DNA of 36,408 bases from Nitrososphaerota archaeon (lineage in GTDB: Archaea; Thermoproteota; Nitrososphaeria; Conexivisphaerales; UBA164), in the NCBI GenBank assembly GCA_029786595.1, contig JAFLXO010000008.1, positions 1 through 36,408 on the forward strand. The letters are read 5' to 3'. Under the pieces are notes generated by a model. It was not told the origin of the DNA and made no database searches. It was given only the letters and a program-made list of their open reading frames with translations. This document shows, in pieces, positions 9,622-36,099 of this stretch; position 1 is the first letter of the stretch; every line of letters starts with the position of its first letter. Position numbers and translations under genes: made by a program.

Positions 9622-9678
9622 ATGGGTTTCGATGCGTGGAGCCTAGTCTACATCGGGAGTAGGGAGCAATTTGTTTAA
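9622..9678 (+). CDS. Possible 18-aa leader peptide (uORF) before the NfnA-like gene
   Basis: The ORF encodes MGFDAWSLVYIGSREQFV and is too short for the ORF track. It has a near-perfect Shine-Dalgarno (AAGGAG, 5-nt spacer), while the downstream gene starts at a TTG. Its TAA at 9676-9678 lies just past that TTG (9671), in a different frame, so ribosomes finishing the leader could re-initiate on the flavoprotein. It may be a coupling or regulatory leader. Alternatively it is the N-terminus of the main protein separated by a frameshift, although homologues normally begin near the TTG. Confidence 0.35.
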   Translation: MGFDAWSLVYIGSREQFV

Positions 9679-10510
9679 AGTTAATGAAATACTTATGAAA
9701 CGACAGCTAGCTAGCGGAGTAAAGGAGATTATAATATTTGCACCTATGGTGTCAAGGGCGGCTAAGGCAGGCCAGTTCATAACCATTATGACCGACGAAA
9801 AAGGGGAGAGAGTGCCGATGACGTTGGTGGATTGGAGTGCAACTGAGGGCTGGATAAAGATCGTAATCTCGGAGGTAGGACTAACCACATTAAAGCTGGG
9901 GTCCAAGGAGGTCGGTGAAACTCTTTATTATCTGGCAGGGCCATTTGGCAATCCAGTCAGCGAACTCAATTCTAGCACAATCATATTGGTGGGAGGTGGA
10001 GTAGGTGTACCAGCAATTTATCCAATAGCACGCTCTCTCTCACGCAATAACACGGTAATATCGATCATAGGATACAAAAACGCGAACTCAATTTTATACG
10101 AAAGGGAAATCGGGGAGGTCAGCGACGAAGTGATTATCGCCACGGACGATGGATCGAAGGGGCAGAAGGGGTTCACTTCGGACGCGTTGCGGGAGCTTCT
10201 TGATTCGGGGCGAAAGGCGGATGCCGTCTGGGTAATAGGACCGGCCATGATGATGAAGGCCTGTAGCGAGGTCACTAGGCCTTATGCGATCAAGACCTTT
10301 GCTAGTTTGAATTCCATAACGGTGTGCGGAAGCGGTATGTGTGGTGCGTGCAGAGTGTCGGTTGGCGGTAAAACGAAGTACACATGTATGGATGGACCCG
10401 AATTTGATGCGCACGAGGTAAACTGGGATGAATTGATCCTCAGATTGGGAGCCTACAAGGAAGAGGAGAAGAGGGCTCTTGGCAGATATATACTAAGGTC
10501 AGCCAATTGA
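9671..10510 (+). CDS. NfnA/SudB-like ferredoxin-NADP reductase subunit
   Basis: FAD and [2Fe-2S] subunit of an NADPH:ferredoxin oxidoreductase of the Nfn/sulfide-dehydrogenase type; related to PyrK, the electron-transfer subunit of dihydroorotate dehydrogenase. 279 aa. The N-terminal beta-barrel ends in 'AAKAGQFITIMTDEKGERVP', where R-V-P-M-T-L-x-D is typical of FAD binding. 'IILVGGGVGVPAIYPIA' is the NAD(P) site. The iron-sulfur Cys set is 'CGSGMCGACRVSVGGK' plus the later 'YTCMDGPEFDAHEVNW', a hallmark of this branch. The start is TTG at 9671 with GGGAG just upstream; in-frame TAG codons rule out a longer start. The catalytic subunit follows 15 bp later. An electron-bifurcating activity is possible but not shown by sequence. 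Confidence 0.88.
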   Translation: MFKVNEILMKRQLASGVKEIIIFAPMVSRAAKAGQFITIMTDEKGERVPMTLVDWSATEGWIKIVISEVGLTTLKLGSKEVGETLYYLAGPFGNPVSELNSSTIILVGGGVGVPAIYPIARSLSRNNTVISIIGYKNANSILYEREIGEVSDEVIIATDDGSKGQKGFTSDALRELLDSGRKADAVWVIGPAMMMKACSEVTRPYAIKTFASLNSITVCGSGMCGACRVSVGGKTKYTCMDGPEFDAHEVNWDELILRLGAYKEEEKRALGRYILRSAN

Positions 10511-10525
10511 GGTGAAAGAAATACA

Positions 10526-11905
10526 ATGAAACAATTGACCGAAAGGGAGAGGATGGCAAAGCGTCTTCCGACCTACAGGATAAGAGATTTTGATGAAGTG
10601 GAACTGGGGTTCACGGAGGATCAGGCTATTCGAGAGGCGAGTCGTGACATAAGGTTCTGCAAGGCTTCGTGCATGCTGGGGTGTCCGGTGGGGGTAAACA
10701 TACCGGAAATGCTTAGATTAGTAGCCGAAGGCAATTATGAAGAGGCCTACCGCCGGCTAATAAAAAAATCCCCTTTCCCAGCTATAACAGGAAGGGTTTG
10801 CCCTCAGGAAAGGCAGTGCGAGATGTTTTGTGTTCTTGCAAAGGCTGGTAAGCCTATATCAATAGGGGCGATCGAGAGGTTCGTTGGTGATTGGGCCTTA
10901 GCTAACAATGTAAAGGAGGAAGCCACCATAAAACCAAACGGTTTAAAGGTGGCCGTTGTAGGCTCAGGCCCTGCGAGCATAGTAGTAGCATCAGATTTAG
11001 CTAGATTGGGTTATTCGATCGATATGTTTGAGGAATCTCACATGGCTGGTGGCGTGCTTGTATATGGAATACCGGAATTTAGGTTGCCAAAGGAAATAGT
11101 GCGGAAGGAGGTTCATCGCTTAAAAGAGCTGGGGGTAAACATCAGGCTAGGTGTACCAGTTGGTACGGCCATTACCATAGGCGAGCTTGCAAGGGAGTAT
11201 GACGCGGTTTTCCTAGGAGTAGGGGCAGGCCATCCCAAATTTCTTAATGTGCCTGGTGAGAACCTTCTTAATGTGTACACCGCAAACGAATTCTTGACCA
11301 GAGCAAATCTAATGAAGGGGTATAGATTTCCTGAGTATGATACACCTTTGCGTGTGGGGAAGAGGGTTGCGGTCATTGGTGCAGGCAACACAGCAATGGA
11401 TTCCGTGAGGACAGCTAAAAGGTTAGGCGCAGAAGAAGCTATCGTGGTGTACAGGCGCAGCAGGCAGGAAATGCCAGCCAGGGCTGAAGAAGTGTTAAAC
11501 GCAGAAGAGGAGGGGATTAAATTTGAGTTCCTATTAGAGCCGATAGAGCTGCTTTCAAATGATAAAAGGACGGTAAGCGGGATCAAGCTTATGAAAATGA
11601 AACTCATCGAATCCAGTAACTGTGAGCGCAAGGCGGTGGTTCCAACTGGTGATACGACCAAGCTCGATGTAGATACTGTGATCACCGCCGTAGGATTCAA
11701 TCCAAACCCCTCCTTGAAAATAGGAACCAATGGCCTTGATACTGATGATATGGGTAGAATTAAAGTGGATGGGCAGGGCAGGACCAGTCTTAAAGGAGTA
11801 TACGCGGGAGGCGACATAGTTACAGGTGAGGGCACTGTGATTGAAGCTATGGGTTGGGGTAGAAGGGCATCAACCGCTATAAATGAAGACCTTTCGGTTA
11901 GATGA
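10526..11905 (+). CDS. NfnB/SudA-like (glutamate synthase small-chain family) oxidoreductase
   Basis: 459-aa flavoprotein of the GltD family; with the preceding subunit it forms an NADPH:ferredoxin oxidoreductase, or in some organisms a sulfide dehydrogenase. The N-terminal 100 residues hold the two [4Fe-4S] cluster Cys groups, 'CKASCMLGCPVGVNIPEM' and 'GRVCPQERQCEMFCVL'. The FAD motif is 'VAVVGSGPASIVVASDLARLG'-like and the NADPH motif 'VAVIGAGNTAMDSVRTAKRLG'-like. 'VYAGGDIVTGEGTVIEAMGWG' is the C-terminal FAD contact. There is no glutamate synthase large subunit nearby, which favours Nfn/Sud over nitrogen assimilation. It ends 36 bp from the convergent htpX gene. Confidence 0.9.
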   Translation: MKQLTERERMAKRLPTYRIRDFDEVELGFTEDQAIREASRDIRFCKASCMLGCPVGVNIPEMLRLVAEGNYEEAYRRLIKKSPFPAITGRVCPQERQCEMFCVLAKAGKPISIGAIERFVGDWALANNVKEEATIKPNGLKVAVVGSGPASIVVASDLARLGYSIDMFEESHMAGGVLVYGIPEFRLPKEIVRKEVHRLKELGVNIRLGVPVGTAITIGELAREYDAVFLGVGAGHPKFLNVPGENLLNVYTANEFLTRANLMKGYRFPEYDTPLRVGKRVAVIGAGNTAMDSVRTAKRLGAEEAIVVYRRSRQEMPARAEEVLNAEEEGIKFEFLLEPIELLSNDKRTVSGIKLMKMKLIESSNCERKAVVPTGDTTKLDVDTVITAVGFNPNPSLKIGTNGLDTDDMGRIKVDGQGRTSLKGVYAGGDIVTGEGTVIEAMGWGRRASTAINEDLSVR

Positions 11906-18436: not shown

Positions 18437-18790
18437 TTATAACAATACAAGCGTTAAGGTGCCAAGCGCAAGTACCATCGCCATGATTACAACGGTGATC
18501 AGATTTATCACCCATTTATATGATTTTGGATGTAACCATTCAAGGATTACGGTCCTGAGCCCTATCATTCCATGTATAGTAGCTGCGTAAAGAAGAAGCC
18601 CAAAGATGATCTGATAATAGAGCAAATTCTTACTTACATACGCAAATGATAATGCTTCTTGAAATGATAGGCCTGTCAGAGGGCTCTGAAGTAACATATG
18701 GAATGTAAGGGTAAATATAAGAATGATGGCCGTCGCATAAACGATCAACATAATCCAGGATTCCTTTAAAATAGAATTTCTCTTTGTCAT
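18437..18790 (-). CDS. sdhD: Succinate dehydrogenase membrane anchor subunit D
   Basis: 117-aa anchor with three hydrophobic helices. 'TIHGMIGLRTVILEWLHP' is the diagnostic SdhD motif (H-G-x-x-G-L-R-x-x-x-x-D/E), where the His is a candidate haem ligand. With SdhC it holds the hydrophilic A and B subunits on the inner face of the membrane and passes electrons to quinone. Last gene of the A-B-C-D operon, 10 bp after sdhC. Confidence 0.85.
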   Translation of the reverse strand: MTKRNSILKESWIMLIVYATAIILIFTLTFHMLLQSPLTGLSFQEALSFAYVSKNLLYYQIIFGLLLYAATIHGMIGLRTVILEWLHPKSYKWVINLITVVIMAMVLALGTLTLVLL

Positions 18791-18800
18791 AATACTGCAC

Positions 18801-19253
18801 CTACACTATCCCCAGGCCAGCCAATATGTACAGGCCGGCCCAGATCCATATTCCAGATACCACCGCTGTTATCGTCCAGATCGCTATCCTCTGGTTTTTT
18901 CCAAGTGAAGTAGGGGTATATGGATATACAGGCATCCTAGGCTTACCCAACAGGAGGCCAAATACCTGATTGAGCAGTAATCTCAGTCCGTTAGCTCCGT
19001 GATAGAACACACATCCGGCTATGATCCAAAGCCCAATATTCTCAAGTGGACCTAACCGGCCAAGCAGCGCTAGGGTTGCCGCCCAAGATTCCGGTCCTAA
19101 CGATATATGGAATATTTCCACCATGTGTGCTATCAAGAAAAGGATTAGAACCACCCCGGTTATCCGATGTAACGTGTAACTCCATCGTTCGATATTATAA
19201 TGACGCGGATCTAGGCTTGATATCAACCTTTTCCAGATGCTATCATTTGCCAT
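18801..19253 (-). CDS. sdhC: Succinate dehydrogenase cytochrome b-type subunit C
   Basis: 150-aa anchor with three helices. 'YTLHRITGVVLILFLIAHMVEI' is the classical SdhC signature, with Arg and a probable haem-binding His. 'FYHGANGLRLLLNQ' matches the H-x-x-N-G-x-R-H/L motif. The ORF track opens at a GTG (19265) inside sdhB; the ATG at 19253 is 1 bp after the sdhB stop and gives 'MANDSIWKRLISSLDPRHY', so I use it. Acts with SdhD in quinone reduction. Confidence 0.87.
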   Translation of the reverse strand: MANDSIWKRLISSLDPRHYNIERWSYTLHRITGVVLILFLIAHMVEIFHISLGPESWAATLALLGRLGPLENIGLWIIAGCVFYHGANGLRLLLNQVFGLLLGKPRMPVYPYTPTSLGKNQRIAIWTITAVVSGIWIWAGLYILAGLGIV

Positions 19254-19254
19254 G

Positions 19255-20079
19255 TTAATCACCACGCTTAAAGTCCAGTGGTGGGGCCGCAGTTAATTTT
19301 TCCTCAGTGAAGTGTGGTTGCAGCGGTTCAGTTATTTCAGCCCCCTTCTTACCCCTTCTTATCAGCAACCTCTTCTTTAGAAGCTCCTTCTTCATCAGTT
19401 GAATAGCTTTCGCTGGGTCAACGTCCTTTGGGCATACATAGCTACAGGCTCCTGCAAAATGGCATCTCCATATTCCATGATCATCATCGACCAACTCCAA
19501 CCTTTCAGCCCATCCCTCATCGCGAGGATCAGCTAGGTAGCGGAAGGCTTGCCCTAAGGCTTGTGGGCCCAAAAATAAAGGATCAATTGTCACAGTAGGG
19601 CATGCTGAAATACATAGGTTGCACATGATACAGTAGTCAAACTGTAGAAACTGTGTGGTCCCCTCTTGTGTCACCTCGAACTCGCGAGGCGCATAAAATA
19701 TTTCTTCCTTTTTACCTCTGATAATATATGGTTTGACCTTTTTATGGTTCTCTATGAGCGAATCTAGCCCAACCACCAGGTCCTTTATAACGGGAGAGTT
19801 GTGCATGGGCTCCACATTGACAACGCCGGCATCCAGTTCAGAAATGTTTGTTTGACACGCGAGCCTTGGCTTCCCATTTATGACCATTCCGCAGGAACCG
19901 CATGTGCCCATATGGCAACTCTGTCTGAAAGCAAGCGTATGATCCTTCTCTTCCCGCACCTTGTTAAGCAGGTCAAGCACCGAAGTTACACCGGTTAGGC
20001 CTATCTGATATGATTGCCACCATTCTCTTGTTCCATCAAACCTTCTGACTCTCAGTATGATTTCATCAGAGCCGTTCAT
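19255..20079 (-). CDS. sdhB: Succinate dehydrogenase iron-sulfur subunit B (copy 1)
   Basis: 274-aa electron-transfer subunit. The plant-type [2Fe-2S] site is 'RQSCHMGTCGSCGMVINGK' with a later Cys in 'RLACQTN'. The C-terminal domain holds the [4Fe-4S] and third cluster in 'YCIMCNLCISACP' and 'CHFAGACSYVCPKDVDP'. It passes electrons from FAD in SdhA to the membrane subunits. The gene follows sdhA with a 1-bp gap and precedes sdhC by 1 bp. The C-terminus extends about 30 residues past the last Cys group, with a Lys/Arg-rich stretch. Confidence 0.94.
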   Translation of the reverse strand: MNGSDEIILRVRRFDGTREWWQSYQIGLTGVTSVLDLLNKVREEKDHTLAFRQSCHMGTCGSCGMVINGKPRLACQTNISELDAGVVNVEPMHNSPVIKDLVVGLDSLIENHKKVKPYIIRGKKEEIFYAPREFEVTQEGTTQFLQFDYCIMCNLCISACPTVTIDPLFLGPQALGQAFRYLADPRDEGWAERLELVDDDHGIWRCHFAGACSYVCPKDVDPAKAIQLMKKELLKKRLLIRRGKKGAEITEPLQPHFTEEKLTAAPPLDFKRGD

Positions 20080-20080
20080 T

Positions 20081-21832
20081 TTAGTACACCCTCGCCACCG
20101 GCTTCCACATGGTAATATTCACTGGTATATATTTAAACTGTGGTCCTTCCGGAGTGTACCAAGCTAGCGAATGAACCAGCCAATGTTGATCGTCTCTTAC
20201 CTTATAATCTAACCTTGCATGCGCTCCCCGGCTCTCCTTACGAAGGTAGGCTCCCATTGTGACAACTTCTGCCTGTTCAAGCATAAATCCTAGTTCAAGC
20301 GCATGCTGAAGATTGTAATTAAGCGTCGGCCTGTGGTCGTCTACCCTTATATTACGGTATCTTTTCTTTAACTCTTGGATCTTAACCAACGCCGTCCTTA
20401 ACCCCTCCTCAGTTCTATAGACATGCACATTTGATTCCATAGTATCCTTGAGTTCATTCTTGATCTGATATACATCCTCGCCACCACTCTCTTTCCCTAG
20501 TATACCATTAAATATTCTATTCTCTTCCGAATCCACCCTTTCCTTTGGAAGAGCTGTATCTTTATCCCTGTGCTGTTCCAGATACTTATAAATCCCGTCC
20601 CCTACTATGGCCCCATACACGAGGCACTCGATAGTGGAATTAGATCCCAGCCTGTTTGACCCATGAACGCTAACACAGGCGGATTCTCCAGCAGCCCAGA
20701 GACCATCTACTGAACCATGGCCATCGTTTAAAACCTTCCCATCTATGTCAGTGCGTATCCCCCCCATGGTATAATGCGCAGTGGGCCTGACCGGAAGAGG
20801 TGCCTCAGCAAGGTCTATACCAAGGTTCTTGAGTCCCAATTCCCTGATCATAGGAAGCTTTTTCTCAATTTTTTCCTTTCCCAAGTGCCGAAGGTCTATC
20901 CAAAGATGGGCTAACCCGGAAACCTTATCGGTGGCAGCCCTACCTTGCGCTATTTCCATCATCTCAGCCCTAGAAACTATATCCCTTGGTGCCAACTCCA
21001 TCTTGGATGGTGCGTATCTTTTCATGAATCGCTCACCTTCGGCGTTTATCAGGTATCCGCCCTCCCCTCTTGCCGCCTCCGTTATCAAAAGTCCTTTTGG
21101 GACTAGCCCAGTTGGATGGAACTGGACGAACTCCATGTCCTCCAGCGGTAATCCTGCCATGTATGCTATACCATATCCATCGCCGGTGGTGCTGCTAGCT
21201 GTAGCTGTTATCCTCCAGAGCTGGCCATTCCCGCCTGTAGCTATGATTCCAGCTTTGCCCTTGAAGAACACCATCTTTCCGGTCTTCAATTCGATAGCTG
21301 TGAAACCTTTAAACTTGCCCCCCTCAATCACCATTGAAGTTACAAAATATTCATCGAACCTCTCCCAATTATCGTACTGTAAAAGCGTGTCATATAGGGC
21401 TCTCATCATAAAGAACCCCGATTTGTCCTGAGCATATGTTGCCCTTGGAAAGCTCAATCCGCCAAACCATCTCTGTTCTATCTTACCATCTTTCCTTCTG
21501 TTCCATGGTAATCCTATTCTTTCTAAAAGCCTTATTTCATCTGTCGCTAGATTAACGAAACGCCACACTACATCCTGGTCAGCTAGGAAATCGCTACCCT
21601 TTATCGTATCCCAGGCGTAAAGTTCCATGCTATCCCCTTCTTCAGGATACAGTACGGCCGAAGTGCCTCCTTCGGCCGATACCGAATGGCTTCTCATAAG
21701 ATAAAGCTTGGAGATAATCGCAACCCTTATGCCGAGCTTCCCTTCATCATTTTTCATGATCTGCAGGGCCGCCCTCAAACCGGCAAGGCCGCTTCCTACG
21801 ATCACCACGTCAAAATCCATTACCTCGGTCAT
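20081..21832 (-). CDS. sdhA: Succinate dehydrogenase flavoprotein subunit A (copy 1)
   Basis: 583-aa catalytic subunit that oxidises succinate to fumarate. The FAD dinucleotide motif is '[17 protein letters not shown]' at the N-terminus. The covalent-FAD His sits in '[15 protein letters not shown]'. '[24 protein letters not shown]' contains the active-site His/Thr region and catalytic Arg. '[18 protein letters not shown]' and '[18 protein letters not shown]' are the conserved substrate and FAD loops. It heads the leftward A-B-C-D operon and is expressed from a TATA box about 27 nt upstream. It is clearly paralogous to the gene at 21992, but sequences differ throughout, so the duplication is not recent. 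Confidence 0.95.
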
Positions 21833-21854
21833 TTATGATAGTGTTTTTCTTACT

Positions 21855-21864
21855 CTATATATAC
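21855..21864 (-). promoter_or_regulatory. TATA box of leftward sdhABCD operon
   Basis: 'ctatatatac' (+ strand reading) is centred about 27 nt upstream of the sdhA start at 21832 on the minus strand, consistent with a leaderless operon mRNA. Confidence 0.6.
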
Positions 21865-21958
21865 ATTTACTAGTGAGCTTGGATAATTTGGGTTTACCAA
21901 ACAGACTACAGTGCGTGCATTCAAGCTTCATGTTAAAAGTTCATAAAATTGTAGCAAG

Positions 21959-21969
21959 TTTTATAAACC
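21959..21969 (+). promoter_or_regulatory. TATA box of rightward sdh-like operon
   Basis: 'tttataaacc' is centred about 29 nt before the ATG at 21992. Together with the divergent box at 21855 it defines a shared 159-bp control region for both complexes. Confidence 0.55.
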
Positions 21970-21991
21970 AAAAACCAAAGATTGAAGTAAA

Positions 21992-23734
21992 ATGGAGACC
22001 GCTGATTACGATATCGTAATAGTCGGAAGTGGTCTGGCCGGAATGCGTGCGGCCCTGCAGGCTGCAAACTTTTCTAATAGGAAATTGAGGATTGCCATGA
22101 TATCCAAATTACATGCTATGAGGAGCCACTCGGTCTCCGCAGAAGGCGGTATTTCAGGGGTGCTTAGCCCCGGTGAGGGAGGCGATTCGATAGAACTACA
22201 TGCTATGGATACGATAAAAGGGAGCGATTATCTTGCAGATCAGGATGCAGTTGAGTTCCTAGTAAATGAAGCCCCTAAGGAAATAAGGTTATTGGATAAT
22301 ATGGGGGTTCCGTGGAATCGAAGAGAGGATGGCAGGATAGTTTTACGTGCTTTCGGCGGCATGAGCATTCCTCGTACAGTTTTCGCAGGTGATAAAACGG
22401 GATTCTTTATGTTAAGTACGTTGTACGATGCCCTTCTGGAATATCAGGATGTGGAAATATTTAATGAATATTTGGTGATTTCATTAAACATTACGCGCGG
22501 GACATTTGGAGGCCTTTTGGCCATGAATATCTCCACCGGCGAAATGAAGCTCTTCAGGGGGAAGGCGGGTGTAATAGCGACGGGCGGTTATGCAAGGATA
22601 TACGGCTTTACAACGACCGCCTTTTCGAGCACGGGGGATGGAATAGCAATGGCCTATAGGGCTGGTGTATCCTTAAAGGATATGGAATTCGTGCAGTTCC
22701 ATCCAACGGCGCTGGTCCCTAGCGGGATCCTGATAACGGAGGCGGCAAGAGGGGAGGGCGGATACCTTCTAAATTCCGAGGGAAAGAGGTTCATGGAGAA
22801 CTATGCCAAGAGCAAGATGGAGTTGGCACCAAGGGATATAGTTTCTAGGGCTATAGTAACGGAGCTTGATCAAGGGCGTGGAGTTGTACAAGAAACTACT
22901 GGTATTGAACATGTGTTTCTTGATCTTCGTCATCTAGGTGAATCAGTAATAGACGAAAGGTTGCCCATGATCAAGGAAATAACCATAAAGATGAACGGCA
23001 TAGATCCTTCAAAGGAAATGATACCGGTTAGGCCAGCAGCTCACTTTACGATGGGAGGAATTCACGTGGATATACATGGAAGGGCTCTTATAAATGATTA
23101 CGATCCAGTAACGGGCCTATGGGTAGCTGGTGAAGCTGGATGCGTCAGCGTACACGGTGCCAACAGATTGGGAAGCAACTCACTGAGCCAGTGTGTAATA
23201 TGGGGCAGGGTTGTTGGTGAAGCCGCGGCAGAGCATGCGCTTGGAAACGGTTATGGTGTTACAAACGAAGAAATGGAGAAATGGGGGGCTTTAGAAGCCT
23301 CCAGGGTAAATAATTTAATGGATCGGACCGGCACAGAAAACCCTTATTTGATTAGAAAAGAGATGCAACAAACCCTCGATAAATACGTCTACGTTTATAG
23401 GGAAACCGACGGGTTCAAAAACGCTAAGAAGGTAATCAATGACCTCAAAAGGAGATACGCTAACGTTTATGTTCAGGATAAATCAAAGGAATACAATACA
23501 AATCTTAGGGATACGCTAGAGTTAGGGAATATGCTGGAATTAGCCGATGTCGTTATCGAATGCGCTCTTGCTAGAAAGGAAAGCCGCGGAGCACATGCTA
23601 TGAAGGAATACCCTAAGAGGGACGACGTTAACTGGCTTAAGCATACTATTGTACGAATGGGGAGTGATGGGCCTGTATTATCATATATTCCTGTCACTAT
23701 AACTAAATGGCAACCTATGGAGAGGAAGTATTAG
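21992..23734 (+). CDS. sdhA: Succinate dehydrogenase/fumarate reductase flavoprotein subunit (copy 2)
   Basis: 580-aa flavoprotein with a complete SdhA/FrdA motif set. The FAD motif is '[17 protein letters not shown]', the covalent-FAD His is in '[15 protein letters not shown]', and the active-site strand is '[24 protein letters not shown]'. 'HFTMGGIHVDIHGRALIND' and 'HGANRLGSNSLSQCVIWG' follow. By sequence it could run either as succinate dehydrogenase or fumarate reductase. It is divergent from copy 1 and begins a four-gene operon (A, two small membrane proteins, B). The membrane protein gene starts 1 bp after its stop. Confidence 0.93.
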   Translation: METADYDIVIVGSGLAGMRAALQAANFSNRKLRIAMISKLHAMRSHSVSAEGGISGVLSPGEGGDSIELHAMDTIKGSDYLADQDAVEFLVNEAPKEIRLLDNMGVPWNRREDGRIVLRAFGGMSIPRTVFAGDKTGFFMLSTLYDALLEYQDVEIFNEYLVISLNITRGTFGGLLAMNISTGEMKLFRGKAGVIATGGYARIYGFTTTAFSSTGDGIAMAYRAGVSLKDMEFVQFHPTALVPSGILITEAARGEGGYLLNSEGKRFMENYAKSKMELAPRDIVSRAIVTELDQGRGVVQETTGIEHVFLDLRHLGESVIDERLPMIKEITIKMNGIDPSKEMIPVRPAAHFTMGGIHVDIHGRALINDYDPVTGLWVAGEAGCVSVHGANRLGSNSLSQCVIWGRVVGEAAAEHALGNGYGVTNEEMEKWGALEASRVNNLMDRTGTENPYLIRKEMQQTLDKYVYVYRETDGFKNAKKVINDLKRRYANVYVQDKSKEYNTNLRDTLELGNMLELADVVIECALARKESRGAHAMKEYPKRDDVNWLKHTIVRMGSDGPVLSYIPVTITKWQPMERKY

Positions 23735-23735
23735 A

Positions 23736-24149
23736 ATGAGCAGGAAGAGTCGTGATTACAGAGGGAAACAATCCAACATATTCAGGCTAAAGTCCTACTT
23801 ACCATGGGCAATAGTGCATTTGATATCCTATAGGATATTGATGCCGGTTTCTATAGCCTATGGCTTACTTACAATTTTTTCACTGCTCTTCTCTTCGCTT
23901 GGTATATACGTCAAGGGGGCAACAATTATGATATGGATTCTATTCACCCCTCAGATCTTCGCTGTAGCCAAGGGGGTGGCGCTTGCCATGTCCGATGGAT
24001 TGGCCTTCGGGCATCTTAATGATTCATATAAATATCTGATGAAAATCAGGTACCATCGAAACGTGCTAATATATATGGCCCTGCCGTATGTTGTATTGGC
24101 GCTCTGGTTAGCCGGATTTATAGCTATGCTTGTGTGGTGGCCGGTATGA
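23736..24149 (+). CDS. Membrane anchor of second SDH-like complex, larger subunit (non-canonical)
   Basis: 137-aa membrane protein with about three hydrophobic helices (residues around 24-52, 56-75, 108-135). By position it should anchor SdhA2/SdhB2. It does not show the SdhC 'R-x-T-G' plus 'H-x-x-N-G-x-R' signature. His are present in 'WAIVHLISYRI', 'FGHLNDSYKY' and 'RYHRN', so haem or quinone binding is possible but unproven. The N-terminal 20 residues are basic and cytoplasmic. It starts 1 bp after sdhA2 and overlaps the next gene by ATGA. Confidence 0.75.
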   Translation: MSRKSRDYRGKQSNIFRLKSYLPWAIVHLISYRILMPVSIAYGLLTIFSLLFSSLGIYVKGATIMIWILFTPQIFAVAKGVALAMSDGLAFGHLNDSYKYLMKIRYHRNVLIYMALPYVVLALWLAGFIAMLVWWPV

Positions 24150-24355
24150 GGGAGTCCAGCATAGCCATCCTAACTTACGTGACGATGATAGGGGTACCCG
24201 TGTTGCTCTTTGTATTGGCAGTCACTGGACCATTTATGGCCTTTCACTTCATAAGGACCGCCCTTTTGGGGTTGACAGGCATTGGCGCTATCGTATTCGG
24301 GGCAGTCGGAATAAATGAGGTGTTCATACATGGAAAAAAAGAACCAAGAAAATAG
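24146..24355 (+). CDS. Membrane anchor of second SDH-like complex, 69-aa subunit (non-canonical)
   Basis: Very small membrane protein with two hydrophobic helices: 'ILTYVTMIGVPVLLFVLAV' and 'ALLGLTGIGAIVFGAVGINEV'. The ORF track begins at a GTG (24134); the ATG at 24146 forms an ATGA overlap with the previous stop, which suits translational coupling. 'GPFMAFHFIRT' holds the single conserved-type His/Arg pair. The SdhD motif H-G-x-x-G-L-R is absent. Its tail is Lys-rich (cytoplasmic). The iron-sulfur subunit gene begins inside its last codons. Confidence 0.68.
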   Translation: MRESSIAILTYVTMIGVPVLLFVLAVTGPFMAFHFIRTALLGLTGIGAIVFGAVGINEVFIHGKKEPRK

Positions 24356-25088
24356 GAACGTAACCATAAGGGTAAAGCGGTTTGACGCCAAGGAGCGGCT
24401 GTTAAAAAGCAGCTCATTTAAGGTCAGCGCTAATAGATTTTCTACAGTATTGGGAGAACTCATAGGCATAAAGGAGGCCCAGGACCCATCCTTGTCGATT
24501 CGGTATAGCTGTAGAATGGGGATATGTGGCTCCTGCGGAATGGTCATAAATGGGAAGCCAAGGCTCGCATGCGAAACTAACGTGTTCTCCCTGGATACTG
24601 ATGAGGTGATAGTGGAGCCCATGCGTGGCCACCCAGTCCTCAAGGACCTGGTTTGCGACTTTGGTGAATTCTTCGATAACCATAGAAAGGTGATGCCCTG
24701 GCTTATAAGAAACAACATGAAGGAGAAGTTCAGGAACGATGTGGAGCACACTCAAACTAGAAGACAGCTCGACAGGTTCCTTCCATTTTCATATTGTATC
24801 AAGTGCGGCCTGTGCGTGGATGCCTGCCCCGTTGTTAACACAAACAGCGCGTTCGTCGGCCCTCAGGCCTTGGCGGCGGTCCGGCGTTATAACGAAGATT
24901 CTAGGGATCAGGGTATCAAACAGAGGTTGGCCGCAATAGATGTAAAGGATGGCGTATGGGGATGCGAGTACGCAGGCGCATGCTCGGCGGTTTGTCCCAA
25001 GGGGGTCGATCCCGCGCTTGCGATTCAGTTACTCAAGATGGATATTATGAAAAGGAAGTTCATAGGTTCGAATAAATCTAAGGAATAG
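24330..25088 (+). CDS. sdhB: Succinate dehydrogenase/fumarate reductase iron-sulfur subunit (copy 2)
   Basis: 252 aa. [2Fe-2S] site 'RYSCRMGICGSCGMVINGK' with 'RLACETN', and C-terminal clusters 'YCIKCGLCVDACP' and 'CEYAGACSAVCPKGVDP'. All Cys needed for three iron-sulfur clusters are present. I use the ATG at 24330, which is 6 nt after GAGGTG, over the ATG at 24315; it overlaps the previous gene by 26 bp. Being last in the operon (A-anchor-anchor-B) differs from copy 1 (A-B-C-D). Confidence 0.9.
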   Translation: MEKKNQENRNVTIRVKRFDAKERLLKSSSFKVSANRFSTVLGELIGIKEAQDPSLSIRYSCRMGICGSCGMVINGKPRLACETNVFSLDTDEVIVEPMRGHPVLKDLVCDFGEFFDNHRKVMPWLIRNNMKEKFRNDVEHTQTRRQLDRFLPFSYCIKCGLCVDACPVVNTNSAFVGPQALAAVRRYNEDSRDQGIKQRLAAIDVKDGVWGCEYAGACSAVCPKGVDPALAIQLLKMDIMKRKFIGSNKSKE

Positions 25089-25193: not shown

Positions 25194-26258
25194 ATGGAAT
25201 CTAGCAAGAAGTATAGAGAGTCAATTAACGACAGGTTTCTTAACTTTCTAGGAGATGTTATACTGCAACCATATTCAATTTTCAGACATGTCTGGAAACA
25301 GGTAATTTTGCTAGTGGCCATGATCACCTTTGGCGCATCCATTTTTATATACTATCAGTCGCTAGGTCCCCTATCAGCCATCGTAGCCTCAGTTTCAACC
25401 ATTTCGACCATAGGGTTCTATGCTCCTCCGCTAGGTTCTATGCCTTCGTTAGAAAAGGTACTTCTCATATTGATCATGATAGTCAGTGTTGGATCAGCTG
25501 CATCTATGGTACAGGGGGTGGTGACCAGCGTTGTAAAAAAGGAGCTATGGACTGAGGACTTGGACGAAATGAGGATTAAGAGGATGGATAAGCACATAAT
25601 AGTGCTCGGTTATTCCCAGATAGGCAGGTATATAGCCCAAAGGCTCATCGAAATGGGTTACAAATTTTGCGTGATAACAAGGGTCAAAGAAAACATAAAG
25701 GAACTGCAGGAACTGCGCATCCCATTTATACTTTCTGATCTAAAATCACCTGTGGACGCGCTTAACAATGCAAAAATCAACACCGCTTCTGCAATTATTA
25801 TGGCCCTAGAAAACGATGACACCAATATGCTCTTTGCGCTTACAGCAAAATTTATGAACGAAAGCATTAGGACCATAGCCATCAATAATGACCGCCTTCT
25901 TATAGAAGGTATGAAGAGGGCTGGGATAGATGTGGTTCTGCCAATTTATTCTATGGTGGGCAGCGTTGCAGCATATTCGGTGGTCTCGGATAACATACTG
26001 GGGGTTATCCATGGAGGAGATAACGCTCTGGCAGGTAGGCATATAGTACAGGTGGAAGTAAGGGACAATTCCAAGCTCGATGGTGCGTCTCTCAAGGAGG
26101 TTCAGGTTGACGTCCTGTTAATAATGCGTGATAATAAAATGATAAGGTTCCTTACACCTGATTTTAAGGTTATTCGTGGTGATAAAATGATGTGCCTGAC
26201 AGATCACGAAAGTCTAAAATACTTGAACCAAATGAATAATACAGATAATGGTCAATAG
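25194..26258 (+). CDS. RCK/TrkA-N-regulated potassium-channel-like protein
   Basis: 354-aa membrane protein: two helices with a pore loop, then a cytoplasmic RCK domain, as in MthK-type channels. The first helix is 'VILLVAMITFGASIFIYY', the pore segment is 'VASVSTISTIGFYAPPLGSM' and the second helix follows around 85-110. The RCK Rossmann motif 'IIVLGYSQIGRYIAQRLIEMG' starts near residue 131, and a TrkA-C-like domain ends the protein ('VQVEVRDNSKLDGASLKEVQ'). The selectivity filter, normally T-V-G-Y-G-D, reads T-I-G-F-Y-A, so ion selectivity is uncertain. It stands between the second SDH operon and aconitase. Confidence 0.83.
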   Translation: MESSKKYRESINDRFLNFLGDVILQPYSIFRHVWKQVILLVAMITFGASIFIYYQSLGPLSAIVASVSTISTIGFYAPPLGSMPSLEKVLLILIMIVSVGSAASMVQGVVTSVVKKELWTEDLDEMRIKRMDKHIIVLGYSQIGRYIAQRLIEMGYKFCVITRVKENIKELQELRIPFILSDLKSPVDALNNAKINTASAIIMALENDDTNMLFALTAKFMNESIRTIAINNDRLLIEGMKRAGIDVVLPIYSMVGSVAAYSVVSDNILGVIHGGDNALAGRHIVQVEVRDNSKLDGASLKEVQVDVLLIMRDNKMIRFLTPDFKVIRGDKMMCLTDHESLKYLNQMNNTDNGQ

Positions 26259-26347: not shown

Positions 26348-28852
26348 CTAGCGGCTGATCTCTACAATCATTTCTTGGAATATGCCGCCCTTCTTGAATG
26401 TCAGGAGTTCAGTTTCAGAATCTATCCTCGCCTTCACTTTGAAACTCTGTTTTTGGCCTTCGCCTGTTGCACTAACTGATAACTCCTTACCTACTGTTAA
26501 ATCAGCTATCCCATCGATGTCGAATGTTTCCCTGCCGGATAGTCCCAATTCCTTCCATCCGCGGTCGGTTTCCAGTGGTAGCACCCCCATATCTATAAGG
26601 TTGTTACGATGTATTCTTTCATAGCTTTCTGCAATAACGGCCCTTACACCGAGTAACCTGGTCACCTTAGCTGCCCAATCCCTTGAACTACCAGAGCCGT
26701 ACTCCTTTCCAGCAAGTATTATCAATGGGGTCCCCCTTTCCTGATATTTTAGTGCCGATCGGTATACTGATGTAATTTCTCCAGTTGGCAGGTAGACCGT
26801 GTTGCCTCCTTCTACCCCTTCATCTACCAAAAAGTTCCTAAGCCTTGTGTTGCTGAAACCGCCCCTGATCATCACTTCATGGTTTCCACGCCTTGAACCA
26901 TAGCTATTGAAATCCTTCTGTTCCACGCCTAGCGACTGCAAATACTTACCAGCTTCGCTGGAGGGCGAAATGCCTCCTGCAGGTGATATATGATCTGTAG
27001 TTATCTTATCGCCTAGCACGAGAAGCGCCCTGGCGCCCTTGATATCTGCTACTTCATCTTTCATTTCCATAAATGGCGGCCTTTTAATGTATGTTGAAGA
27101 GGAGTTCCAGCTATAGAGGAGTCCATGTCCCGTATCCAGCCGCTCCCATTCTTCCTTACCCTTGAATATATCAGAATATCTTTCCTTGAACATGTCTTGG
27201 TTTATGATTTTTGCGCTTTCCTCGATGGCCTTTTCGCTTGGCCATAGGTCTTTTAGATATATTTTCTTGCCGTTGGGATCGGTTCCTATGGGATCATTTT
27301 TAATATCCATATCGATATATCCTGCTAGAGCGTAGGCTACTACCAACGGAGGGGACATCAGATAACTAGCTTTGACCATCGGGTTAATCCTTCCCTCAAA
27401 ATTTCTATTACCGCTAAGCACGGCGACTGACCATAATCCTTTTGAGGATATTTCACTAGCAACCCGATCTGGAAGCGGCCCGCTGTTACCTATACAGGTA
27501 GTACAACCGAACCCCACTATTTGAAATCCAAGTGCTTCAAGGTAAGGAAGGAGGTTCAGTTTTCTTAGATACTCCTCTACTACAGGTGAACCGGGGGCCA
27601 GGCTTGTTTTGACCCAAGGCTTGGTTTTTAGCCCCATTTGTACCGCTGCCTTTGCAAGGAGGCCAGCTCCTATAACGACGGACGGATTTGATGTATTAGT
27701 ACAACTGGTGATAGCGGCAATCGCTATGACACCATCCCTGAGTTCCCCATCAGTTTTTTTGATATAGCTCTGGACGCTGGCTCTCACATCGCCTAGACTT
27801 ACTCTTGAATCAGGGTTCCTTGGTCCAGCAATGCTTGGTTCTATTTGTCCAAGATCTATATCCAGAAGATCGTCGTATCTGATTCCCTCAGCTTCATCAT
27901 TTGAATAGAATAGGCTATTTTCCTTTAGGTAGCTTTCAATGTAGCTATGATATCTGTTTGTCATTTTCAAGTAAGTTAGCGTTTTTTCATCAGGAGGGAA
28001 GAAGCCTATTGTCGCCCCGTACTCGGGCGTCATATTGGATACGGTGGCCCTATCTTCAACGCGCAGGCTCTTTAAACCAGGCCCAAAGAATTCTACAAAT
28101 TTACCAACTACACCCTTTTTCCTCAGCAATTCTGTGATCGTCAAAACAAGGTCGGTGGCCGTAGCGCCGCTCAAAAGGCTACCGGACAGCCTTACGCCAA
28201 CCACCTGCGGCAACGGTAGATAGTAGGGTTTACCCAGCATTAGCGCTTCTGCTTCAATGCCTCCGATACCCCATCCTAGTATACCTAAGCCTCCTATCAT
28301 CGTTGTGTGAGAATCAGTGCCCAGTACGGAATCAGGAAACAGCGATTCGCCATCCTTTATGACCAGCGAAGCCAGAAACTCTAGATTAACTTGGTGAACT
28401 ATACCTCTTCCCGGTGGAACTATCCGCAGTTTTTTAAAGGACTTCTGAGCCCATTTTAGAAGTTCATATCGTTCGATGTTCCTCTCCAGCTCCAATTCGG
28501 TGTTCAGCTGATAAGCATATGTAGTTCCAAAGAAATCAACCTGTACCGAATGATCAATTACTAAATCTGTCTGAATCTTTGGGTTCAAATCAGCAGGGTC
28601 TTTGGCCTTTTCCCTCAGCGCTGCAAGATCAACTATGGCCGGAACGCCAGTAAAGTCCTGCATAACCAGCCTGGAAGGGACAAATGGCAGTTCCACCCCA
28701 GGCCTGAGCATGGAATGGACATCAACCTTCCCACTTTGCCTCAGCACATTCTCCATTAGCATTCTAATTGAGTATGGCATAGAATCAATGTCAGGGATAG
28801 ACCTTTTAAGATCATAATAGCTACCGAAGGAGGATTTAGTCATATCTGTCAT
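26348..28852 (-). CDS. acnA: Aconitate hydratase (AcnA type)
   Basis: Interconverts citrate and isocitrate through a [4Fe-4S] cluster in the TCA cycle. 834 aa, somewhat shorter than the usual 880-900. Cluster Cys are in 'AITSCTNTSNPSV' and 'VGFGCTTCIGNSGPLP'. The swivel domain shows 'LAGKEYGSGSSRDWAAK' and 'AVIAESYERIHRNNLIDMGV', and 'VLGTDSHTTMIGGLGILGWG' is the N-terminal active-site strand. It lies next to both SDH operons; the gene is probably monocistronic, with its own TATA box and terminator. Because iron-responsive regulatory proteins are eukaryotic, I assume a plain enzyme. Confidence 0.96.
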   Translation of the reverse strand: MTDMTKSSFGSYYDLKRSIPDIDSMPYSIRMLMENVLRQSGKVDVHSMLRPGVELPFVPSRLVMQDFTGVPAIVDLAALREKAKDPADLNPKIQTDLVIDHSVQVDFFGTTYAYQLNTELELERNIERYELLKWAQKSFKKLRIVPPGRGIVHQVNLEFLASLVIKDGESLFPDSVLGTDSHTTMIGGLGILGWGIGGIEAEALMLGKPYYLPLPQVVGVRLSGSLLSGATATDLVLTITELLRKKGVVGKFVEFFGPGLKSLRVEDRATVSNMTPEYGATIGFFPPDEKTLTYLKMTNRYHSYIESYLKENSLFYSNDEAEGIRYDDLLDIDLGQIEPSIAGPRNPDSRVSLGDVRASVQSYIKKTDGELRDGVIAIAAITSCTNTSNPSVVIGAGLLAKAAVQMGLKTKPWVKTSLAPGSPVVEEYLRKLNLLPYLEALGFQIVGFGCTTCIGNSGPLPDRVASEISSKGLWSVAVLSGNRNFEGRINPMVKASYLMSPPLVVAYALAGYIDMDIKNDPIGTDPNGKKIYLKDLWPSEKAIEESAKIINQDMFKERYSDIFKGKEEWERLDTGHGLLYSWNSSSTYIKRPPFMEMKDEVADIKGARALLVLGDKITTDHISPAGGISPSSEAGKYLQSLGVEQKDFNSYGSRRGNHEVMIRGGFSNTRLRNFLVDEGVEGGNTVYLPTGEITSVYRSALKYQERGTPLIILAGKEYGSGSSRDWAAKVTRLLGVRAVIAESYERIHRNNLIDMGVLPLETDRGWKELGLSGRETFDIDGIADLTVGKELSVSATGEGQKQSFKVKARIDSETELLTFKKGGIFQEMIVEISR

Positions 28853-35511: not shown

Positions 35512-36099
35512 CTAGAATTTCTGCAGTATATCCTCAGCGCCAGACTTCTGTGTATATGATAGTACCATGTCAAGCGTTCTATGGCCAGTAATCTTTGCGA
35601 TTAGCTGAGGGGAAATCCCTCGCCGTGCAGCCTCGGTGATCCAAGCGTACCTTAGGGAGTGGGTATTATATCCGAGCCTCCTCCTGCTCCACATTTCAAT
35701 AGCAGGAAGTTGGACGGATGCTAGGGCCCCTAGAACCCTGCTTTTGTAGCTGTAATATCTTTGGACTTCAGGTGGTATAACCATTAATCTGGTGGACTCT
35801 GTCTTCTGTTTTCTAACTCTCACTTCGACTGATGGGTTCCTATTTCTGAGCCATCCGTTCATTGCTTCTACAGCTTCTGAAACCCTTGAGCCGTTTCTCA
35901 ATTGGGTAAGCAGGACACATGAGAAGGCAAAGCCAGAATCAGCATGAATGCCCTCCTTTTCTGCGTATTCCTTTAGTAGCACAGTTAACTTTGAGTAGGT
36001 TTTTTTATAGTCGGCGCCTTTATCCCATCCGAATTGTTTCCAGGTTTTCTTAGGGTGGTTGATAGGCGGCTCAGATCCAGTTTTGTTAGAATCTAACAT
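35512..36099 (-). CDS. Tyrosine recombinase/integrase, catalytic domain only
   Basis: 195-aa site-specific recombinase of the phage-integrase/XerC family. Catalytic residues are visible: Arg in 'LRNGSRVSEAVEA', His-x-x-Arg in 'YNTHSLRYAWITEA', His in 'KITGHRTLDMVLSY' and the Tyr nucleophile in 'VLSYTQKS'. Lys in 'RKQKTESTRLM' is probably the fifth. The usual N-terminal SAM-like core-binding domain is reduced to a short basic segment, so it is a minimal member. It starts about 27 nt downstream of a TATA box and about 37 bp from a perfect palindrome. It differs from the longer XerA proteins (about 280 aa) of archaea. No att duplication at a tRNA is visible. Confidence 0.85.
   Translation of the reverse strand: MLDSNKTGSEPPINHPKKTWKQFGWDKGADYKKTYSKLTVLLKEYAEKEGIHADSGFAFSCVLLTQLRNGSRVSEAVEAMNGWLRNRNPSVEVRVRKQKTESTRLMVIPPEVQRYYSYKSRVLGALASVQLPAIEMWSRRRLGYNTHSLRYAWITEAARRGISPQLIAKITGHRTLDMVLSYTQKSGAEDILQKF

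Follow-up and report, generated by a model that had tools for sequence, protein, structure and literature searches.

A second complex II operon with predicted haem-free membrane anchors in a Conexivisphaerales archaeon and its relatives

Respiratory complex II, which comprises succinate dehydrogenase (SDH) and fumarate reductase (FRD), is divided into six classes by membrane domain in current reviews (PMC10238741). For the Micrarchaeota ARMAN-2 and Family 1, the flavoprotein SdhA was found to be closest to that of Caldisphaera, and high SDH levels in ARMAN proteomes are cited in the same work (PMC5864196). In such archaea, annotation reports "two subunits" of SDH or missing anchors (Martarchaeaceae, PMC12542729). 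Here we analysed a stretch of 36,408 nucleotides (hereafter the window) from a Nitrososphaerota archaeon of the order Conexivisphaerales (contig JAFLXO010000008.1 of the 83%-complete assembly GCA_029786595.1), which carries two sdh operons. The subject of this work is the second of them, sdhA2-C2-D2-sdhB2 (order A-C-D-B), which is transcribed in the opposite direction to the canonical sdhA1-B1-C1-D1 operon. It probably encodes a complex II that belongs to a separate archaeal lineage, lacks haem and is linked to quinone, with an anchor of 3+2 helices and a history of horizontal spread. C2 and D2 are a real and widespread anchor type that, as far as the open-access literature shows, had not been catalogued for this well-known enzyme. 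The initial annotation had proposed an undescribed respiratory complex, and this stood for the anchors, which no curated family covers, but not for SdhA, already recorded in Micrarchaeota and Caldisphaera under the annotation SDH (PMC5864196).

The SDH of Micrarchaeota (ARMAN-2, Family 1) and Caldisphaera lagunensis shares with the second complex the SdhA clade, the A-C-D-B operon and the anchors, and differs in that the earlier work dealt with the flavoprotein only (PMC5864196). No earlier description of the anchors, of their missing haem ligands or of the Glu in SdhB was found in the open-access literature searched. Canonical complex II of Nitrososphaeria and Sulfolobales, with two anchors of three transmembrane (TM) helices and four His, resembles class A of PMC10238741. 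It is like the second complex in SdhA (SdhA2 and SdhA1 are 54% identical), in gene order and in the kinship of D2 with SdhD, whereas the second complex has no conserved anchor His save H28 of C2, no helix III in D2, and Glu in place of His in SdhB. From the class A-type anchors of PF01127, C2 and D2 differ by the absence of both an Sdh_cyt match and the conserved haem-ligand His. Escherichia coli FrdABCD (class D, haem-free) also has two hydrophobic anchors without haem, which is predicted here from the absent His pair, and a residue other than His at the SdhB H207 position; the anchors show no detectable sequence relation, however, and the second complex has 3+2 rather than 3+3 helices and, in the B subunit, Glu where FrdB has Thr. 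Class E (SdhE/SdhF, CCG domain) is comparable in having atypical anchors in archaea, whereas C2 and D2 lack the Cys-rich CCG domain and possess hydrophobic TM helices instead of amphipathic ones. In class B the anchor is a single 5-TM cytochrome b with four His and two haems, and in class F a single 6-helix protein with a Rieske-type cluster; the second complex has two genes for two short anchors (3+2 TM), His absent, and no conserved Cys/His cluster motif. The lineage fits none of the six classes (PMC10238741) cleanly, and neither Pfam nor NCBIfam detects its anchors.

Membrane anchors and catalytic subunits

All four open reading frames (ORFs) were found where the initial annotation had placed them. 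In six further genomes of the same order C2, at 38-100% identity, directly followed an SdhA2 that was 63-99% identical, and by this recurrence the four are real genes and not chance ORFs. Pfam and NCBIfam contained nothing credible for C2 or D2; SdhA2 and SdhB2 were strongly recognised by the same libraries, and so were the anchors of the canonical neighbour. Even at E up to 1, PF01127 (Sdh_cyt) matched none of the 26 C2 and none of the 25 D2 homologues. The R-x-T-G, H-x-x-N-G and H-G-x-x-G-L-R signatures, which had been reported missing from the pair in the window, were lacking over these two sets as well, and so were any conserved Cys, a CCG motif and a Cys/His cluster motif.

His residues of the canonical anchors were strongly conserved, at H45 (28/30) and H87 (30/30) of SdhC and at H31 (22/23) and H73 (23/23) of SdhD, and by analogy with class A these four would suit two bis-His b haems. 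All four positions were without His in C2 and D2. The sole conserved His of C2 was H28 (26/26), which precedes the Arg of helix I and lies at neither canonical His position, while none was conserved among the 25 D2. When 85 further homologues were aligned, H28 was present in 85 of the 86 C2 sequences (one gap), and Arg/Lys33 and Trp124 in every one. An AlphaFold2 (AF2) model of C2, with a predicted local distance difference test (pLDDT) score of 85, contained long helices at residues 22-49, 53-85 and 111-134. Since none of the four His conserved in canonical anchors is retained, a membrane domain without haem, one of the options raised in the initial annotation, is the best reading of these alignments.

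The motif sets of the catalytic subunits proved complete, as first proposed. SdhA2 keeps the His for covalent attachment of flavin adenine dinucleotide (FAD) and the equivalents of H232, T244, E245, R287, H355 and R390 (E. coli FrdA numbering), and 11 of 11 cluster Cys, ligands for [2Fe-2S], [4Fe-4S] and [3Fe-4S], were present in 26/26 B2 sequences. The features of the complex II superfamily, an SdhA/FrdA flavoprotein, SdhB/FrdB cluster ligands and a membrane anchor, were found together in one operon. A point missing from the initial annotation is a Glu of SdhB2 that turns the motif CHxxxxC into CExxxxC. In E. coli SdhB the His of this motif is His207, which adjoins haem and quinone. The position was Glu in 23, Asp in one and His in two of the 26 B2 sequences, and Glu without exception in 56 further Micrarchaeota operons with a scored motif; it was His in 9/9 aligned canonical B1, and is Thr in the haem-free FrdB of E. 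coli.

Profile comparison with characterised anchor families gave no clear match for both small proteins, and related D2 to archaeal SdhD, without the haem ligands. The hhalign probability of D2 against archaeal SdhD was 72% (E 3.3e-5) over the first 23 columns, against E 0.33 for the reversed profile, and the score was 31, against 7-9 for column shuffles; searched against 3067 ORFs, the D2 profile had SdhDs as its first matches outside the family. By this comparison D2 is a truncated SdhD homologue, its first helix placed by the profile match and the remainder by eye. Residues F51-G52-A-V-G55 of D2 were aligned by eye with H-G-x-N-G of SdhD, and it appears from this that the haem ligand was replaced by Phe/Tyr and the third helix was lost. 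Among the top weak matches of the C2 profile, SdhCs were over-represented, which weakly suggests an SdhC-like role, and we do not file C2 as a shown member of SdhC. Hidden Markov model searches of the PDB with C2 and D2 returned only unrelated chains with weak scores; matches to DNA polymerase alpha (0.0036) were gone with a larger alignment. An AF2 model of a natural D2-SdhB fusion reached a pLDDT of 50 and was not used.

Distribution and history of the operon

The initial annotation had looked to Thermoplasmatales, while the host belongs to the class Nitrososphaeria and the nearest carriers are metagenome-assembled genomes (MAGs) of Nitrososphaeria/Thaumarchaeota. C2 was present in 7 of 20 genomes of the order, each time with SdhA2, D2 and SdhB2 as A-C-D-B. 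A search with the C2 profile recovered the same operon in other Thermoproteota, among them a genome which we take to be that of Caldisphaera lagunensis, and a scan of GTDB genomes added carriers in Marsarchaeota and in MAGs with the labels Micrarchaeota, Parvarchaeota and Nanoarchaeota. About a quarter of the genomes sampled (69/295) from the phylum to which one Micrarchaeota carrier belongs had C2. Only one SdhA was found in each of ten DPANN carriers, and the second-type complex appears to be their sole complex II, these MAGs being incomplete. Thermoproteus tenax was rejected as a carrier, its anchors being canonical and His-bearing.

Gene order had been considered unusual and a clue to a separate complex. 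It was dropped as a distinguishing mark because canonical SDH operons are arranged A-C-D-B as well in Nitrosopumilus-like relatives, in a family of the same order (f2) and in several Sulfolobales. The A-C-D-B order of the second operon is kept across phyla. In five of the DPANN loci found first, D2 and SdhB form one protein with D2 at its N-terminal end; a script counted the same fusion in at least 39 of 60 additional Micrarchaeota operons, and inspection of missed cases added more. Such fusion shows that D2 and SdhB act together and that both ends of D2 lie on the SdhB side. A class II fumarase gene (fumC) adjoined 53 of these 60 operons, and malic enzyme was encoded upstream in some DPANN loci. 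Together with sucCD, into which the operon runs in one Sulfolobales MAG, and the aconitase gene of the window, these neighbours fit the C4 part of the tricarboxylic acid cycle and give no direction. In three loci of the Micrarchaeota phylum sample (L176-L178), D2 and SdhB were not fused and the fumarase gene that usually adjoins the operon was missing. Carriers occurred both in the bd-only family of the order and in the cox family f2, and a link of the second complex II to the type of oxidase was dropped for this reason. These oxidase findings broadly fit the published split of Conexivisphaerales into cox, bd and anaerobic families (PMC10833072).

In the SdhA tree, SdhA2 fell in a core clade of 17 rows (100/100) with other Conexivisphaerales, Caldisphaera, Marsarchaeota and DPANN, which sits within a clade of 21 rows (92/78), beside Thermoproteales and with phyla mixed. 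SdhA1 grouped with its own family. On this placement we rejected an origin of the second operon by recent duplication of its canonical neighbour: SdhA2 is no local duplicate and moved between phyla. Horizontal transfer would have carried the gene set through thermoacidophilic Thermoproteota and DPANN archaea. Other SdhA-like genes were seen along the way. A Caldisphaera-like genome (G313, C1 ~330411-332144; L159) had a third, orphan SdhA without adjoining B or anchor genes, a close relative in sequence of the canonical SdhA of the same genome. A T. tenax-like genome and a relative (L153 and L155) each had a second SdhA whose neighbouring gene encodes only the 2Fe-2S half of SdhB (100-112 aa); neither a 4Fe-4S/3Fe-4S domain nor anchors were seen there, and the pair may form a soluble fumarate reductase. 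A very divergent SdhA-like protein (39% identity; L049 in G018, C100) formed a long branch.

Recognition of C2 and D2 would provide membrane attachment and a quinone link for the sole complex II that the search of DPANN genomes revealed, and bears on whether these tiny archaea respire. The purpose of the haem in complex II also becomes a testable question, as a natural enzyme predicted to be haem-less stands beside a His-rich paralogue in one genome.

Proposed mechanism and alternatives

Succinate/fumarate chemistry would take place at the covalent FAD of SdhA2, and electrons would pass by the ordinary path through the [2Fe-2S], [4Fe-4S] and [3Fe-4S] clusters of SdhB2. In the anchor of C2 (three helices) and D2 (two helices, SdhD minus its haem-ligand His and third helix), which would hold no b haem, electrons would be transferred directly between [3Fe-4S] and one quinone site. 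This site may lie on the cytoplasmic side, lined in SdhB2 by the Pro160 equivalent and by the Glu replacing His207, and probably also by two residues where helix I of C2 begins, His28 and Arg33. As the transmembrane haem wire would be absent, the complex should not be electrogenic, and it could run either way, like E. coli FRD. Opinion is evenly balanced on whether this makes a seventh complex II class, archaeal and haem-free, with a split 3+2 anchor, a quinone site of a single His (C2 H28) and SdhB Glu, and D2 often fused to SdhB, which many Micrarchaeota would have as their only complex II and which would have moved between DPANN and thermoacidophilic Thermoproteota.

Several points weigh against the haem-free, quinone-linked reading. 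The predicted lack of haem derives solely from the absent His, and ligation by other residues could occur. Homology of C2 to SdhC is weak, since hhalign gave E 0.049, at the background level of the reversed control (0.03). Foldseek of the C2 model against the PDB found chance matches only (E >= 3.5), though short three-helix bundles are poorly served by it, and for that reason this null result carries no weight against kinship with SdhC or FrdC. Two Thermoproteaceae-like loci (L078 and L079; G340 and G260) combine C2/D2-like anchors with A-B-C-D order, a kept SdhB His and an SdhA of Thermoproteales type; this looks like an exchange of the anchor module relative to the A/B module, the sister T. 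tenax having canonical anchors. Finally, the Micrarchaeota relative Mia14 has no quinone genes, and also no SDH (PMC5498576).

An ordinary canonical complex II with fast-evolving anchors that still bind haem via other residues would accord with the known poor conservation of complex II anchors (PMC3750248) and with D2 being recognisably SdhD-derived. We consider it unlikely, because the haem ligands are the best-conserved positions of the canonical anchors, H28 is the only His conserved in the C2 and D2 sets, and the haem-side His of SdhB changed in parallel with the anchors. Direct descent from the class D anchors FrdCD of E. coli is very unlikely. The functional pattern of two anchors, a predicted lack of haem and no His at the SdhB H207 position is that of class D, whereas a search of the order with PF02300, the Pfam model of the E. 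coli FrdC family, gave no C2 match at E up to 10, and hhalign of C2 with FrdC and of D2 with FrdD stayed at background; D2, moreover, has two helices where FrdD has three, and it matches archaeal SdhD.

The haem-free, quinone-linked reading is compatible with a reductive quinol:fumarate reductase, kept alongside the canonical SDH for life at low oxygen or by fermentation, which we regard as a tentative possibility. It is in line with the haem-free anchors of E. coli FRD (PMC10238741) and, in Micrarchaeota, with the adjacent fumC and the malic enzyme near some loci. The nearest PDB match of SdhB2 is also FrdB (191.5 bits, vs 137.2 for SdhB), an argument that was dropped because the canonical SdhB1 likewise matches FrdB best. 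E. coli SdhA and FrdA differ at a Gln/Glu position (E49/Q50) that is Glu in both operons of the window and does not discriminate SDH from FRD, and a reductive role is further opposed by the presence of the second complex in f2 genomes with cox-type oxidase and by the operon that runs into sucCD. That another carrier or a protein, not a membrane quinone, is the electron partner, with the anchors for attachment only, seems quite improbable. Some DPANN relatives may lack quinone synthesis, as Mia14 does, and Tardisphaera strains yielded no detectable quinones (PMC12542729). On the other side, the invariant polar residues of helix I, H28 and Arg/Lys33, are at the end nearest SdhB, as a quinone site would require, quinones can be taken up from hosts, and the genome of the window has a bd oxidase.

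Operon layout and neighbouring features

The coordinates are collected in Table 1. The ORF of sdhB2 is open from ATG 24315, which would give 257 aa, and its start overlaps the end of D2. Between the two operons, each of the TATA-like elements is located ~27 bp from its start codon, and this spacing suggests leaderless mRNAs for both.

Table 1. Features of the two sdh operons and their surroundings, in positions of the window
Feature	Position	Strand	Basis or remark
sdhA2, flavoprotein subunit, 580 aa	21992..23734	+	Pfam FAD_binding_2 3.9e-106, Succ_DH_flav_C 5.7e-42; catalytic residues complete; own clade in tree
C2 anchor, 137 aa, 3 TM helices	23736..24149	+	starts 1 base past sdhA2 stop; no Pfam/NCBIfam match
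C2 His28 codon, only conserved His of anchor pair; proposed quinone-site residue	23817..23819	+	alignment
D2 anchor, 69 aa, 2 TM helices	24146..24355	+	ATG 24146 overlaps C2 stop as ATGA; no curated family
sdhB2, iron-sulfur subunit, likely ~252 aa from ATG 24330	~24330..25088	+	Fer2_3 1.2e-27 and 4Fe-4S domains; 11/11 cluster Cys
SdhB2 Glu codon at E. coli SdhB His207 position (CHxxxxC to CExxxxC)	24966..24968	+	alignment
Divergent intergenic region between the sdh operons, 159 bp	21833..21991	.	TATA-like TTTATAAA ~21960 and TATATATA ~21856, read from sequence
sdhA1, canonical operon (comparison)	20081..21832	-	Pfam/NCBIfam
sdhB1, canonical, CHFAGAC motif (comparison)	19255..20079	-	Pfam
sdhC1, canonical (comparison, positive control)	18801..19265	-	Sdh_cyt 1.1e-11
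sdhD1, canonical (comparison)	18437..18790	-	weak Sdh_cyt 3.9e-5; TIGR02968 1.7e-6
Aconitase, downstream of second sdh operon	26348..28852		

Directly 3' of sdhB2 (25194-26258) lies a probable potassium channel, made up of a TM domain and a TrkA_N protein, which occupies the same place in two genomes of the same genus. Further away, positions 9671-11905 hold a pair resembling NfnAB/glutamate synthase (a DHODB Fe-S domain protein and a Fer4_20/Pyr_redox protein), and a short phage-integrase-like ORF was observed at 35512-36099, near the contig end.

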